From contig CANLOU010000003.1 in NCBI GenBank assembly GCA_947492995.1, forward strand, positions 744,001 to 808,000: a stretch of DNA of 64,000 bases. Reading direction: 5' to 3'. Shown piece after piece: positions 9,234 to 62,110 of the stretch. The stretch is from an uncultured Litoreibacter sp. GTDB lineage: Bacteria > Pseudomonadota > Alphaproteobacteria > Rhodobacterales > Rhodobacteraceae. Position 1 is the first letter of the stretch; every line of letters starts with the position of its first letter. Under the pieces are notes generated by a model that worked only from the letters and a program-made list of their open reading frames with translations, did not search any database and was not told the DNA's origin. The position numbers and the translations under genes are program-made.

Positions 9234-9255
9234 GGTAAACAGAATTCTGTTTACC
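9234..9255. promoter_or_regulatory. 22-bp perfect palindrome GGTAAACAGAATTCTGTTTACC in ftsA-ftsZ interval
   Basis: Self-complementary by direct reading. Confidence 0.6.
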
Positions 9256-15020: not shown

Positions 15021-15043
15021 AAATTCCTTCGGCGAAGGAATTT
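15021..15043. repeat. Hairpin AAATTCCTTC-GGC-GAAGGAATTT
   Basis: 10-bp perfect stem 3' of recN. Confidence 0.7.
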
Positions 15044-15044
15044 G

Positions 15045-15067
15045 AATTTTCTTCGACGAAGAAAATT
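15045..15067. repeat. Hairpin AATTTTCTTCG-A-CGAAGAAAATT
   Basis: 11-bp perfect arms; same arms occur in the palindrome at 62058-62081. Confidence 0.7.
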
Positions 15068-41623: not shown

Positions 41624-42376
41624 TTACCGCCCGCCTGAAACATCAACGGAGGTGCCGGTGATGTAGCTGGCCCCTTCGCCAAGCAGGAAAAGGATGGCGT
41701 GGGCGCATTCCTCGGCGTCGCCGGGGCGTTTCATGGGCACTTGGTCTGCGAGGTCATCGCAGCGGTCGGGCAAGCCGCCCTTGGCGTGGATGGCGGTCTC
41801 GATCAGGCCGGGGCGGATGGCCACGACGCGGATGCCTTCAGGCGCGACCTCGTCGCTGAGACCTTTGGTGAAGATGTCGATGCCGGCCTTCGTGGCGGCG
41901 TAGTCCACATATTGCCCGCCCGAGCCCAGCCGCGCGGCGGCGGAGCCGGTGTTGACGATGACGCCGCCATCGCCGCCATAGGCGGTCGACATGCGCAGCA
42001 CGGCTTCCTTGGCGACCAGCATCGGCGCGATGAGGTTCACGTCGACCATGCGGCGGAGCCGGTCATAGGACATCTCGTCCACGCGTTGAGGCTTGTCGAC
42101 GATCCCCGCATTGTTGACCAATGCGTCGAGCTGCGGGAAGGCGGCGTCGAATTCGGTGAAGATGCGCGTCACGTCTTCGGGGTTGGCCAGGTCGCCTTGC
42201 AGCAGGTGGGTGATGGCGCCTTCTTGTTCACACATCTGGGCCACCAACTGGGCGCCTTTCAAATCGGAGTTGTAGTGGATGCCCACGTCGTAGCCATGTT
42301 TGGACGCAAGAACGGCGGTGGCCGCCCCGATGCCGGAGGAGGCCCCGGTGATGAGGATTGATTTCTTGCGTGCCAT
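41624..42376 (-). CDS. SDR-family oxidoreductase
   Basis: ILITGASSGIGAATAVLASKHGYDVGIHYNSD; NNAG; YAATKAG. Confidence 0.93.
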   Translation of the reverse strand: MARKKSILITGASSGIGAATAVLASKHGYDVGIHYNSDLKGAQLVAQMCEQEGAITHLLQGDLANPEDVTRIFTEFDAAFPQLDALVNNAGIVDKPQRVDEMSYDRLRRMVDVNLIAPMLVAKEAVLRMSTAYGGDGGVIVNTGSAAARLGSGGQYVDYAATKAGIDIFTKGLSDEVAPEGIRVVAIRPGLIETAIHAKGGLPDRCDDLADQVPMKRPGDAEECAHAILFLLGEGASYITGTSVDVSGGR

Positions 42377-42388
42377 ATCTGCGGTGCC

Positions 42389-42919
42389 TCAGCTGATTTT
42401 GAATGCGGTCTGGATGTCTTCGAGCGCGGAGTGTTGTTTGGAGTTCATCGGGCCTTCGGCCTCGTTCAGGATCGTCTTCAGAATGGACATCAGCGGCGTG
42501 AAGGACCCCGCTTTGTCGAGCTTGTAGAGCTTGCGCGCCATGCGGTCGATGCCTTCCTGCGCGCCGTTGCATTGGGTCATCATCCAGCGGCCCAGCACCG
42601 CGATCTCGGCGGCGTCTTTGACGTTGAGGCCCAGCTCGGATTGTAGGCCGCGGATCATCGCGTCCTTTTCCTCCTGCGTCGGGTAGTCGTCGAGCTCAAG
42701 AAAGGACACCACGATGCCGGCGATGGCGATGTTGGGGTCCTCGATGTCCTCGACCGGGTGGCGGTTGTGGTTGCGGCGGAACCCGAAGCGGCGGGCGGCG
42801 GCGCGGATGTCGTTGGCAACGTCGAGAATTTCATGGGCGGTGTCGGCGGCGTTGCGCGCGCGCCAGACCCAGACGCCGATGGCGGTGATCGCGCCGAGGA
42901 TGGTGAGAAGAAGGGGCAT
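42389..42919 (-). CDS. Hypothetical TerB-like membrane-anchored protein
   Basis: MPLLLTILGAITAIGVWVWRARNAADTAHEILDVANDIRAAARRFGFRRN... Confidence 0.6.
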   Translation of the reverse strand: MPLLLTILGAITAIGVWVWRARNAADTAHEILDVANDIRAAARRFGFRRNHNRHPVEDIEDPNIAIAGIVVSFLELDDYPTQEEKDAMIRGLQSELGLNVKDAAEIAVLGRWMMTQCNGAQEGIDRMARKLYKLDKAGSFTPLMSILKTILNEAEGPMNSKQHSALEDIQTAFKIS

Positions 42920-43071
42920 CGCTAAGAACTCGCTTGGTTTGACTGGGCTTAAACAGGTCGAGTTTGGCGGATTTATGGCGGTCAGGGCAAGTTTTTTAGC
43001 AGAGCGACGCATGCGTCGGATTGGCTAAGCCTTTGAAATTGCAAGGATTGGCCTGCGTTGTTAGGGAAATA

Positions 43072-43884
43072 TTAATTTGGTGTCGTGGGTGGGTGAGATG
43101 TTCCGGTCTCGTAGGGGCAGATCTGTTCCATCTGCAGGGTTACGTCCGCTCCCTGCAGCGAGAGCACGCCCAGGGCGGGGGCCTCGGCGGCGGGCGCAAA
43201 GCTGGACCAGTCCCAATCGGGGACCGGCGGAGGGGCCTGATAGAGCACCGAGCGCATGGTCGAAAACCCGATGCCGCGGATCACGCCGGTGATCGGGCGG
43301 TGGACATGACCGATGCACAGATACCTCACGCATTCATAGCGGGCCACGAGGTCGAGCAGGCTCTCGCCGTCTTCCATCCGGTCGCTGTCCTGCATGGGCA
43401 ATCCCAAGGCCATGGGCGGGTGGTGCATAACGAGCGTGACGGGCGTGTCGCCCGCGTCGCGGAGGGTCTTGTCCAACCAAGCACGGCGGGACGGGCACAT
43501 CTCCCCCGCATCCGCGCCTGCTTTGAGCGTGTCTAGGCAGACCAGCAGCCCGCCCTCCACGGCCACCTGATATTGGATGAAATCAGCCATGCAGGTGGCG
43601 GGCAGGGGCAGCGTTTCGCGCAACAGCGCGCGGTTGTCATGGTTGCCGACCATGGGCAGAACGGGGACGCAGAGCGTCGCCAAGATGGCTTGCAACGCCT
43701 GATAATCCGCGCGGGTGCCGCGATTGACCATGTCGCCTGAAATGACGCAGGCCTGCGCGTCGCTGTGGTGGGTGTTGACGTGATCCACCGCAGCCTGCAG
43801 CCGGACGCGTGGGTCGTGGCCCAGCACATCGCCTTGATGGGTGAAATGCGGGTCGGACATCCAGATGATTTTGGGTGACGTCAT
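43072..43884 (-). CDS. Metallophosphoesterase (cAMP phosphodiesterase-like)
   Basis: IIWMSDPHFTHQGDVLGHDPR, ISGDMVNRG, VGNHDN, MHHPP, IGHVHRP. Confidence 0.88.
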   Translation of the reverse strand: MTSPKIIWMSDPHFTHQGDVLGHDPRVRLQAAVDHVNTHHSDAQACVISGDMVNRGTRADYQALQAILATLCVPVLPMVGNHDNRALLRETLPLPATCMADFIQYQVAVEGGLLVCLDTLKAGADAGEMCPSRRAWLDKTLRDAGDTPVTLVMHHPPMALGLPMQDSDRMEDGESLLDLVARYECVRYLCIGHVHRPITGVIRGIGFSTMRSVLYQAPPPVPDWDWSSFAPAAEAPALGVLSLQGADVTLQMEQICPYETGTSHPPTTPN

Positions 43885-43895
43885 TTTGGCGGCCT

Positions 43896-44090
43896 TCATG
43901 CCTGTTGCGAGATCGGGGAGAGGTCTGGTGCCACGAATGCCGCCCTCGCGGCGTCTGAAAAGAGCGTCGCTTTGGAAAAATGGGACAGCATGTCATCTTC
44001 GGCGAGAAACGCCTTGCAAGAGTAGGTCGCGCCCGCGCACTGCATCAAGTGGCGGCACGCTTCGTCCGTGGCACTGGTGCGGCTGCGCAA
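43896..44090 (-). CDS. Hypothetical small protein
   Basis: 64-aa ORF in the same orientation, ending at the start region of the phosphoesterase. Confidence 0.4.
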   Translation of the reverse strand: MRSRTSATDEACRHLMQCAGATYSCKAFLAEDDMLSHFSKATLFSDAARAAFVAPDLSPISQQA

Positions 44091-44132
44091 TGAAGAGCTC
44101 CTTTCGGGATCTGTCTTGGGTGGGGGGCTTGC

Positions 44133-44462
44133 TTATTCAGCCAGTAGGGCGGCCTCGATGGTGTCGTCCCAGCCCAGATGCCACGTCTCGCCCGCGCGGA
44201 TGACGGGGCGGGCCATGACTTTGGGTTGGGCCGCGATCTGCGCCTCGGCCTCGGAGTTTTTCAGCCAAGTGTTGAGCGCGCGGTAGTCGTTGGTGGTGGT
44301 GTCCACCAGATTGTCGCCGAATTCGGCGATTAGCATGGCCAGCTCGTCCTCGGACAGCGGCTCGGCACGGACATCGCGGAAAGTGACGGTATGGCCCGCG
44401 CCCTCAAGCGTTTTGCGGGCGCGGTTGCATTGGGCGCAGGTGGTCAGGCCGTAGATCATCAT
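44133..44462 (-). CDS. ArsC/Spx-family protein
   Basis: MIYGLTTCAQCNRARKTLEGAGHTVTFRDVRAEPLSEDELAML. Confidence 0.85.
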   Translation of the reverse strand: MMIYGLTTCAQCNRARKTLEGAGHTVTFRDVRAEPLSEDELAMLIAEFGDNLVDTTTNDYRALNTWLKNSEAEAQIAAQPKVMARPVIRAGETWHLGWDDTIEAALLAE

Positions 44463-44948
44463 GGGGCGCGGGCTTTCTGTTGGGTCCGTGTTACGGGCTT
44501 TCTGCCTGAAAACGGGGGCGGTGGCCATTTTTATTGGTGGGGTGGCTCTGGTCTGGCCCGTCGACGGGCAACCGGCTTTCGGGGGAAAACCGGCGCTTCA
44601 TGCGCTGGGGCGGGAGGAGGACGCGGTGGCGATGTTGCGGGAGATGGCTGCGGGGTAGCTGCGGTAGATGGGTTTGGGCGCGCTGCGACTGTCTGCTTGG
44701 AGCCCAGATGACCCTCATCAACGCGATTACCGCTGCCCGGTTAACAGGCCGCAGGCCCCGGGCATCGCCAGACCGTCCGACAGGGCTGGCGATTTGGTGG
44801 GCTGGGCGCTACGCATGTCTGGAAGATGACTTTGCTACCATAAAGCGCTGTCGAATGAGTCTTTGGGTCGCCATCCTGCGGTCTGGCCATGCCCTTCAAA
44901 TCAAACAGCAGGTTTCGACAAAGCTCTGCTCTGAGCCCGTAGCGGGAA

Positions 44949-45041
44949 AAGGCCGTTCGAACGGCCTTGTGCGCACGAATTGCAATTCGTGCTCAAAAAC
45001 GTCTTCGAAGACGTTTGCCCTAATCCGCTTCGAAGCGGATT
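44949..45041. repeat. Array of four perfect 20-bp palindromes
   Basis: AAGGCCGTTCGAACGGCCTT (44949), GCACGAATTGCAATTCGTGC (44973), AAACGTCTTCGAAGACGTTT (44997), AATCCGCTTCGAAGCGGATT (45022); spacing 24/24/25 bp. Confidence 0.9.
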
Positions 45042-45090
45042 TTTCCAGACCCGAACGACCGCTTCGTCCGCATAGCGGACTTCCAACCCT

Positions 45091-47655
45091 CTAAGCCCCC
45101 AAGATCCGCGTCACCATCTCGGTCGTGTCGCGGCTCAACCCCCCGGTGGCTTTGATCCGCTCCAGCGCTTCGCGCATTTGGCCTTGGCGGTCGGCGTCAT
45201 AGCGTTTCCATGTGTCGAACACCGACGACATGCGGGCGGTGGTTTGCGGGTTCATAGCGTCCAGCGCGATCAGCGCGTCGGCCATGACGCGGTAGCCCTC
45301 GCCGGACGGGTCGTGGAAGCCCGCCGCATTGGCGCCAAGCGCGCCGTAGACCGCGCGGAAGCGGTTGGGATTGGTCATGGTGAAATCGGGATGCTGGCTC
45401 ATCTCCACCGCCTTGGGGGCGGCGCGGTCGAGCTTGGCGTGGCCCACCTGCATGCCGAACCATTTGTCCATCACCAGCCGGTCGTCCTTCCATTGCTCAT
45501 AGAAGGCCTGGTTTTCCGCCTCGCCCTTCTCGGCGCGCAACAGGCAGCCGAGGGCAGCCAATTGCTGGGTCATGTTGTCGGCGCTGGCATATTGCTTGGC
45601 GGCCTGCGTGCCGCCATCGAGGCGGGACAGCATGGACAGCGCGGCGTTGCCCCATGCGCGTTTGTCGGCGTCCTCGATGCGCGGAGAATACGGTCCGGTG
45701 ACCTGCATCTCAGTATAGATGCGGGGCAGCAGGTCCTGCATCGCCTCGCTGATTGTGTGGTTGAGCGTCTGGCCGGTGAGAAAGATTTTGGTGGGGTCGG
45801 GCGTCATGCCGCCATCGACCAGCGCCTGCTGGATGTCGTCATTGGAGGGGCCGGAGAAGCAGAAGGCCTTGAAGCCCGGGTCCAGCGTGTCGTCGCGGGC
45901 CACGGCGATGAGCCCGTCGAGATAGGCTTGGTCCGGCGTCGCGTCCTCGGTCACCATGCGGACCATGACGTCGCGGGCAAGGGCGCGGCCTGCCTCCCAT
46001 TTGTTGAACGGGTCGGTGTCATGGGCCAAGAGGAACGCGCGTTCCGCGTTGGTCTGGTCACGCTCCAGAATGATCGGCGCGGAGAAGCCGCGGTTGATGG
46101 AGGGGACAGGTTTTTCGGCGAGGCCCGTGAAGCGGAACTTGTGGACCTCGTCCGTGACCTCGCAGATTTTGGTGGGGTGGATTTCTTCGCCCTGTTCGTT
46201 CAGCAGCCCCACGGCGATGGGGATGACGCGCGGGTCCTTGGTGTCCTGGCCGGGCGTCGGCGGCGTGGATTGGGTGAAGGTCAGGGAGTAGGTGCCGTCT
46301 TGGAACGCCTCGTCCACCTTAACGCGCGGGGTGCCGGCCTGTTGGTACCACAGTTTGAACTGGGTGAGGTCGCGGCCCGTTGTGTCTTCAAAGCACTTCA
46401 GCCAGTCCTCGATGGTGCAGGCCTGGCCGTCATGGCGGGTGAAGTAGAGGTCGCAGCCCTTGTAATAGGCCTCGTCGCCGATCAGCGTCTTCAGCATGCC
46501 GATGACCTCGGCGCCTTTCTCATAGACGGTGGCGGTGTAGAAATTGTTGATCTCCACGAAACTTTCGGGGCGCACGGGGTGGGCCAGCGGGCCGTTGTCT
46601 TCGCGGAACTGGCGGGCGCGCAGCTGCATGACGTCGGCGATGCGTTCCACAGCGTGGCCGCGCGTGTCGCCGGAGAATTGCTGGTCGCGGAAGACGGTCA
46701 GGCCTTCTTTGAGGCACAGCTGGAACCAGTCGCGGCAGGTGATGCGGTTGCCGGTCCAATTGTGGAAATACTCATGCGCGATGATCGTCTCGATCCGGTG
46801 GAAATTGCCGTCGGTGGAGGTGTCGGGCGAGGCGAGGACGGCGGACGAGTTGAAGATGTTCAGCCCCTTGTTTTCCATCGCGCCCATGTTGAAATCATCC
46901 ACGGCCACGATGTTGAACAGGTCCAGATCATATTCGCGGCCATAGACGTCCTCGTCCCATTTCATGGAGCGTTTGAGCGCGTCCATGCCGAAGGAGGTTT
47001 TGTGCAGGTCGCCGTCGCGCACGTAGATGTTGAGGTCCACCTCGCGGCCCGATTTGGTGGTGAATGTGTCGTGCAGGTTGACCAGATCGCCCGCGACCAG
47101 CGCAAAGAGATAGGCGGGTTTGGGGTGCGGGTCGTGCCATTTTGCGACCCCGTTTGCATCTGTGCCCAGATCGTTGCCGTTGGACAGTTTGACCGGCTCA
47201 TCGCCTTCGATTGTGACGGTGAACACAGCCATTACGTCGGGGCGGTCGGGGTAGTAGGTGATTTTGCGAAAGCCCTCGGCCTCGCATTGGGTGCAATACA
47301 TGCCGTTTGACATGTAGAGGCCTTCCAGCGCGGTGTTGGTGGACGGCGAGATTTCCACTTCGCATTCAAAGAGAAACGGCGCGTCGGGGGCTTGGGCGGT
47401 CAAGCCCAGATCGGTCAGCTTGGCATCCGCGTCCTGCCCGTCGATGGTGGCGGAGATCAGTTTGAGCTGCTCGCCATGCAGATAGAATGTCCGGTCTTTC
47501 GTGTCCGGGTTCGGACGGAAGGCGATTTTGGAGAGCACCCGCGTGGCGGTTGGGTGCAGCTTGAAGGTCAGCTGGACCGTGTCGACCAGATAGGCGGGGG
47601 GTGTGTAGTCGCTGAGAAAGATTTCCAGAGGGGCGGCGGGGGAGGCGTCTTTCAT
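45091..47655 (-). CDS. pepN: Aminopeptidase N (M1 family)
   Basis: GAMENKGLNIFN, HEYFHNWTGNRITCRDWFQLCLKEG. Confidence 0.97.
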   Translation of the reverse strand: MKDASPAAPLEIFLSDYTPPAYLVDTVQLTFKLHPTATRVLSKIAFRPNPDTKDRTFYLHGEQLKLISATIDGQDADAKLTDLGLTAQAPDAPFLFECEVEISPSTNTALEGLYMSNGMYCTQCEAEGFRKITYYPDRPDVMAVFTVTIEGDEPVKLSNGNDLGTDANGVAKWHDPHPKPAYLFALVAGDLVNLHDTFTTKSGREVDLNIYVRDGDLHKTSFGMDALKRSMKWDEDVYGREYDLDLFNIVAVDDFNMGAMENKGLNIFNSSAVLASPDTSTDGNFHRIETIIAHEYFHNWTGNRITCRDWFQLCLKEGLTVFRDQQFSGDTRGHAVERIADVMQLRARQFREDNGPLAHPVRPESFVEINNFYTATVYEKGAEVIGMLKTLIGDEAYYKGCDLYFTRHDGQACTIEDWLKCFEDTTGRDLTQFKLWYQQAGTPRVKVDEAFQDGTYSLTFTQSTPPTPGQDTKDPRVIPIAVGLLNEQGEEIHPTKICEVTDEVHKFRFTGLAEKPVPSINRGFSAPIILERDQTNAERAFLLAHDTDPFNKWEAGRALARDVMVRMVTEDATPDQAYLDGLIAVARDDTLDPGFKAFCFSGPSNDDIQQALVDGGMTPDPTKIFLTGQTLNHTISEAMQDLLPRIYTEMQVTGPYSPRIEDADKRAWGNAALSMLSRLDGGTQAAKQYASADNMTQQLAALGCLLRAEKGEAENQAFYEQWKDDRLVMDKWFGMQVGHAKLDRAAPKAVEMSQHPDFTMTNPNRFRAVYGALGANAAGFHDPSGEGYRVMADALIALDAMNPQTTARMSSVFDTWKRYDADRQGQMREALERIKATGGLSRDTTEMVTRILGA

Positions 47656-47773
47656 ATGGGGCTCGACTTTTTGGGATCCAGATACATCTGAGAGGGTATG
47701 TTCCCGATAAGGCGCGCACAACTGTCAAAACAGCGCCGGGCAACATATTGGAGATATAGAAAGGAACCTGACA

Positions 47774-62057: not shown

Positions 62058-62081
62058 AATTTTCTTCGATCGAAGAAAATT
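62058..62081. repeat. 24-bp perfect palindrome AATTTTCTTCGATCGAAGAAAATT
   Basis: Direct reading; arms shared with 15045-15067. Confidence 0.85.
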
Positions 62082-62110
62082 ACAATAGAGTTTTGAACAA
62101 ACTCTATTGT
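62082..62110. terminator. Hairpin ACAATAGAGTTT-TGAAC-AAACTCTATTGT between convergent genes
   Basis: 12-bp perfect stem; overlaps the stop codon of the M48 protease gene. Confidence 0.7.

Follow-up and report, generated by a model that had tools for sequence, protein, structure and literature searches.

The closest described relatives of the sequence considered here include the REP/BIME elements, among them REPs tagged with GTAG or CGTC (PMC3733652) and REPs linked to a RAYT (PMC2817692). Like these, the palindrome arrays described below are short, clustered, dispersed and extragenic, and the roles proposed, in termination and mRNA stabilisation, are the same. Tandem or bidirectional intrinsic terminators offer a further parallel, with strong G+C-rich hairpins placed right after stop codons and enriched between convergent genes. 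Pneumococcal BOX and RUP and other bacterial MITEs (PMC3049150, PMC2229807) resemble the local form of the element in being small, dispersed and intergenic, with internal stem-loops and inverted-repeat-like ends, while RNA hairpins maintained by template switching (PMC8794818) share with the arrays their apparently simultaneous compensatory changes. The array in question lies near pepN in a 64-kb stretch of an uncultured Litoreibacter sp. genome, and this stretch as a whole is called the window throughout.

Results

A sequence check of the window upheld the initial annotation in its description of the locus: four perfect 20-bp palindromes (H1 to H4) of conserved size, period and centre, with variable arms, a small hairpin on either side, and some 50 bp between the array and the 3' end of pepN (45041 to 45091; Table 1). 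The array sits in a gap of about 560 bp that separates pepN, on the minus strand, from a small gene at 44133-44528. Only short T runs adjoin this copy (TTTCC after H4 on the plus strand, TTCCC after H1 on the minus strand). No further run of the four-palindrome type occurs in the 64-kb window, where the remaining long perfect palindromes stand alone. An isolated perfect 22-bp palindrome, GGTAAACAGAATTCTGTTTACC, lies between co-directional genes at 9234-9255.

Table 1. Array features and neighbouring elements in the window
Feature	Coordinates	Strand	Remark
Whole dispersed element with four-hairpin core	44926..45081	+	17 genomic copies, 91-97% identity to window copy
Small 5' hairpin of element, CCCG-TAG-CGGG	44936..44946	+	Window sequence and element consensus
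H1, AAGGCCGTTCGAACGGCCTT	44949..44968	+	Unchanged in 17/17 genomic copies
H2, GCACGAATTGCAATTCGTGC	44973..44992	+	Counterpart in other genera is ACGCGATTTGCAAATCGCGT
H3, AAACGTCTTCGAAGACGTTT	44997..45016	+	Palindrome in window; cross-genus comparison
H4, AATCCGCTTCGAAGCGGATT	45022..45041	+	Palindrome in window; genomic copies
Small 3' hairpin of element, GTCCGC-ATA-GCGGAC	45066..45080	+	Window sequence
pepN-like aminopeptidase gene	45091..47721	-	Transcript would run into array, H4 first
Two AT-rich hairpins (AATTTTCTTC..GAAGAAAATT type)	15021..15067	+	About 10 nt after stop codon
Two AT-rich hairpins (AATTTTCTTC..GAAGAAAATT type)	62058..62110	+	Fill convergent gene junction

The array is not confined to this locus and is far more than chance would give. 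Statements about the whole Litoreibacter sp. genome rest on pattern, BLAST and model searches and on 400-kb samples. The pattern TTCGAA-N10-40-TTCGAA occurs at 28 places in the 3.84-Mb genome, compared with one for a reversed control pattern, which bears out the suggestion that tandem TTCGAA palindromes are enriched, and 16 of the 28 carry the H3-H4 sequence of the window or a near variant. By BLAST, an element of about 150 bp is present in 16 other copies in both orientations, and one divergent three-hairpin relative comes in addition. Conservation extends from about 29 nt 5' of H1 to some 30-40 nt 3' of H4, beyond which the flanks are unrelated in most copies. The two ends of the element, GAATGTCYGCT.. 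and ..GCGGAC(ATT), resemble each other as degenerate inverted repeats. The earlier account needs one shift of emphasis: although the units of one array have different arms, the array as a whole has been copied as a unit in this genome, where 17 near-unchanged copies are found; that it is not a single terminator is agreed.

Changes among the 17 copies are unevenly distributed: they affect 3 of 1360 hairpin sites, as against 18 of 221 in the interleaved spacers (Fisher p = 2e-13) and 157 of 1003 in the inner flanks (p = 3e-57). These p values are nominal, as sites are non-independent across related copies, but the contrast is large. Since spacers alternate with hairpins and do vary, whole-copy homogenisation by gene conversion is ruled out as the sole cause of the hairpin invariance. 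Array cores in this genome stand at least 46 nt from stop codons because the element flanks intervene. One copy (L029) lies directly behind an intact ordinary terminator and is therefore not needed for ending the upstream gene.

Other repeats surround these copies. A second dispersed repeat adjoins the array at 44733-44935, and copies of it, 84-94% identical, are found on contig C1 and next to further copies of the array; it accompanies the window copy (L016) as well as L020, L022 and L024, in the last on the opposite side of the array. The 3' end piece CGAACGACCGCTTCGTCCGC..GCGGAC (45051-45080) matches alone in about 15 other genera (L054, L057, L059-L062, L064, L066-L069, L071-L073), which suggests, at the sequence level, a separate widespread small repeat. 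That the sequence at the end of the element (GTCCGCTTTGAGCC) would be the mark of a carrier common in the Litoreibacter sp. genome but free of arrays was considered and found no support. Several congeners have either the SDR gene (41624-42376) or the gene at 42389-43012 immediately after pepN; the corresponding span here is 41624-47721. As genes 43072-44528 and repeats intervene in the Litoreibacter sp. genome, the pepN locus has been rearranged there.

Comparison across the family brought out the arrangement of the hairpins. Other Rhodobacteraceae genera possess three- or four-hairpin arrays with different arms in the same order. An alignment (A2) and a covariance model (R1) were built from nine arrays of nine genera, and R1 matched 54 of the 397 genomes searched in the family (E<=1e-3), and about 20 of these had at least 9 matches each; ordered arrays thus occur in related Rhodobacterales, as the initial annotation had proposed to check. 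In a class-wide draw of 290 genomes, R1 matched only the Litoreibacter sp. genome and gave one weak hit (L165, in G631), which was rejected as an unrelated tandem repeat; that locus, from another alphaproteobacterial family, holds about 10 tandem copies of the 14-mer GAAAGCGCTTGGCC. Scanning named genomes by pattern yielded 60 stretches, in Tropicibacter, Pseudoponticoccus, Nioella, Marivita, Shimia, Ruegeria, Maliponia and relatives, and a single match in Enemella is probably contamination. Within the genus Litoreibacter, arrays of this kind (type A) are present in 1 of 12 other genomes, as about nine divergent ones, and 11 of 12 are without them; in congener G688 several arrays are visibly decayed, some with one-sided changes. 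Rfam covariance models gave no curated family match, only a nearby sub-threshold chance hit, and in plasmid and phage collections the window array had no match, nor did another genus's array in the plasmid collection. A published description was not found in the open-access literature, which is weak evidence that ordered four-hairpin arrays constitute an undescribed family.

What is conserved between genera is pairing. In A2, 99.6% of cells are paired, 14 of 32 pairs show double changes, and there are 26 double-changed cells as compared with 5.3 after shuffling. In Tropicibacter alexandrii and Pseudoponticoccus marisrubri, H1 and H2 display 40 symmetric double and 2 one-sided changes in 384 pair cells (H3 and H4, being part of the search pattern, were left out of this count), and their spacers differ at about 35% of positions. 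Decayed coding sequence, the refutation envisaged earlier, is excluded by copy number and covariation. None of the genuine array hairpins of the set, those of co-directional arrays included, has a clear G-U pair, as opposed to about 9-12% of pairs in the U-tract terminators of array-bearing genomes, a contrast that is indicative given that detection rules differ. Four hairpins are commonest among 66 arrays (36), followed by two (18), and spacers are mostly 3-5 nt. Units mostly start with AAG or ACG and end with CTT or CGT; the AAG ends of H1, H3 and H4 are nearly invariant, and H2 has no AAG end. The loops are TTCGAA (170), TTGCAA (29) and other TTNNAA forms, with the outer TT..AA kept even around a non-palindromic centre. 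Such centres (TTCCAA, TTTGAA, TTGAAA) are frequent although the arms are palindromic, as expected for hairpins. The plus and minus strands of the array fold about equally well.

The arrays are also tied to gene ends. The median distance from the start of an array to the closest stop codon is about 9 nt. By context, 23 arrays lie between convergent, 34 between co-directional and 3 between divergent genes, where the junctions of these loci taken together number 58/225/49; the odds ratio is 2.9 for convergent (p=8e-4) and 0.30 for divergent junctions (p=0.04). As genes were called from codon usage by a simple program, single gene ends may be misplaced. With respect to the upstream gene, the order H1-H4 runs either way about equally often. 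Many convergent arrays leave only 5-15 nt on either flank; in three sampled family genomes the median native convergent gap is 54-92 nt. An unselected 400-kb sample of T. alexandrii had arrays at 4 of 48 convergent and 0 of 49 divergent junctions, and contained 7 arrays of at least 4 hairpins; chains of at least 3 were absent from Markov copies of the 400-kb samples, the comparison that had been called for. In the same species the 8 nt after the first array hairpin hold 0.58 T on average (at least 5 T in 0 of 12 cases), as against 2.61 after other gene-end hairpins, so the first hairpins are not canonical intrinsic terminators. Several gene ends in this sample (L176-L195) have GTAGGATGGGT-loop-ACCCATCCTAC hairpins of a GTAG-containing repeat family distinct from the arrays. 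Orthologous junctions have retained two-hairpin arrays in three genomes of Nioella and likewise in three Marivita-type genomes with aligned stretches of 85-95% identity.

A detector that makes no use of specific sequence found 14 tandem-hairpin chains per 400 kb in T. alexandrii, 8 in congener G687, 16 in the Litoreibacter sp. genome and 1 in an outgroup, versus 0.0-0.33 in Markov copies. G687 and the Litoreibacter sp. genome have two- and three-hairpin arrays with AT-rich arms, unrelated to type A, that abut stop codons. At the junction of array copy L028, G687 has the same convergent genes separated by a different, three-hairpin AT-rich array rather than by a clean empty site.

Discussion

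The reading that we prefer, in which we place roughly even confidence, is that the array is a bidirectional multi-hairpin gene-end element that serves to end transcripts and/or to protect their 3' ends, and that is partly mobile. The sequence of either strand folds into four distinct strong hairpins, as a rule a few nucleotides past the stop codon, which sequence, position and covariation bear out. Through these, RNA polymerase could be stopped or roadblocked and/or the RNA 3' end shielded from exonucleases; both neighbouring genes would be served, mainly where they converge, and a U-tract would not be required. The arms of one array probably differ so that each hairpin folds on itself and not with its neighbour, and probably also because direct repeats in the DNA, which could be deleted, are thereby avoided. 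In the Litoreibacter sp. genome a small dispersed element also carries the array and has spread to 17 places; elsewhere the arrays stay at fixed junctions by inheritance and change in pairs, possibly aided by template-switch mutation. Location at gene ends, covariation, constraint on the hairpins, non-palindromic centres, folding of both strands, neutrality of orientation and retention at orthologous junctions all speak for this gene-end reading; the scarcity of T after the hairpins, the lack of clear G-U pairs, copy L029 and the patchy distribution count against it. Of the three options named in the initial annotation, a multi-hairpin RNA fits best because of gene-end location, covariation and loop centres that do not need palindromy; a protein-binding array we regard as unlikely, and a palindrome-generating process alone is insufficient.

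The best arguments for either a DNA-level role or simple mobility are the lack of clear G-U pairs in co-directional arrays and the position of L029 behind an intact terminator. The arrays could be selfish palindromic repeats, their hairpins being substrate for a trans-acting transposase (of single-strand or REP-like type) and gene ends merely harmless insertion sites. This is rather unlikely in our estimation. In its favour are the dispersal of 17 copies whose flanks are unrelated and whose ends form short, imperfect inverted repeats, the patchy presence within the genus, L029 itself, and the absence of the array from pepN of congeners at a locus rearranged in the Litoreibacter sp. genome. It fits poorly, however, with the fact that this genome lacks the REP-associated transposase NF047646, which shows no association with arrays in 37 genomes either, and with the conservation of arrays at orthologous junctions. 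In other genera, moreover, the array often makes up the whole convergent gap, and because the leftover flanks are shorter than native gaps, it was not simply inserted into a normal one. Neither a clean empty site nor a target duplication was found, and the one junction examined closely (L028) held another array in the congener.

The palindromes might instead act as DNA, by extruding as cruciforms or by binding a dimeric protein, for example as a BIME-like gyrase or IHF site that would affect topology or form a polymerase barrier. Since one sense RNA alone needs hairpins in co-directional arrays, the lack of clear G-U pairs even there, where U-tract terminators in these genomes have roughly 10%, suggests that pairing is needed on both strands or at the DNA level, and the neutrality of orientation, the nearly invariant TTNNAA centre and the AAG ends of H1, H3 and H4 are in keeping with a DNA site. 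Yet half-site sequences vary freely between copies, H2 is without the AAG end, AT-rich arrays of unrelated sequence are found at equivalent sites, some units lose their palindromy at the centre, and so close a tie to stop codons would be more natural for an RNA. We consider a DNA-level function unlikely. Very improbable, in our judgement, is that the arrays are a mere mutational product in which template switching keeps generating perfect palindromes without selection. The mechanism is documented for RNA hairpins (PMC8794818), and the double changes, which lack intermediates, speak for it, as does the occurrence of both loop orientations; it fails to account for hairpins that are near-invariant in 17 copies despite varying interleaved spacers, for loops that are conserved although such switching could not correct them, and for the conserved H1-H4 order and gene-end location. 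Template switching may thus contribute to the double changes, but alone it leaves conserved sequence, loops and location unexplained.

Extending the gene-end RNA reading, we would suggest only tentatively, and with more doubt than belief, that Rhodobacteraceae possess a distinct two-way gene-end device, independent of U-tracts, of 2-5 ordered, sequence-different and strictly Watson-Crick hairpins, which comes in interchangeable sequence families and is probably read by a dedicated factor for UUNNAA-type loops. If the RNA reading were true, terminator finders based on U-tracts would miss a widely used means by which a large bacterial family ends convergent transcription. Regardless of function, a genome may have tens of arrays in which the interleaved spacers vary and one-sided changes are close to nil. 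They offer a natural test case for the question whether compensatory changes come about in a single step, by template switching, or through short-lived intermediates.

Taken together, the array would appear, judged from its sequence, to work like REP/BIME elements or tandem terminators, but it lacks their defining features. Unlike REP/BIME, it is an ordered array of four different perfect palindromes, the arms of which differ between units of one array; the GTAG (or CGTC) tag at the foot of the palindrome is absent from its units, GTAG being found only inside the small 5' hairpin of the element, and the tyrosine transposase (RAYT) is missing from the Litoreibacter sp. genome (G000), as mentioned above. 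Intrinsic terminators differ in that the arrays comprise up to four or five hairpins in fixed order and spacing, usually with no U-tract and with no clear G-U pairs. In contrast to BOX, RUP and other MITEs, the hairpin core occurs in many genera without the element ends, and what is kept in it is the pairing, not the sequence. Finally, whereas the hairpins described as maintained by template switching belong to RNA genes, the arrays are dispersed elements of gene ends.
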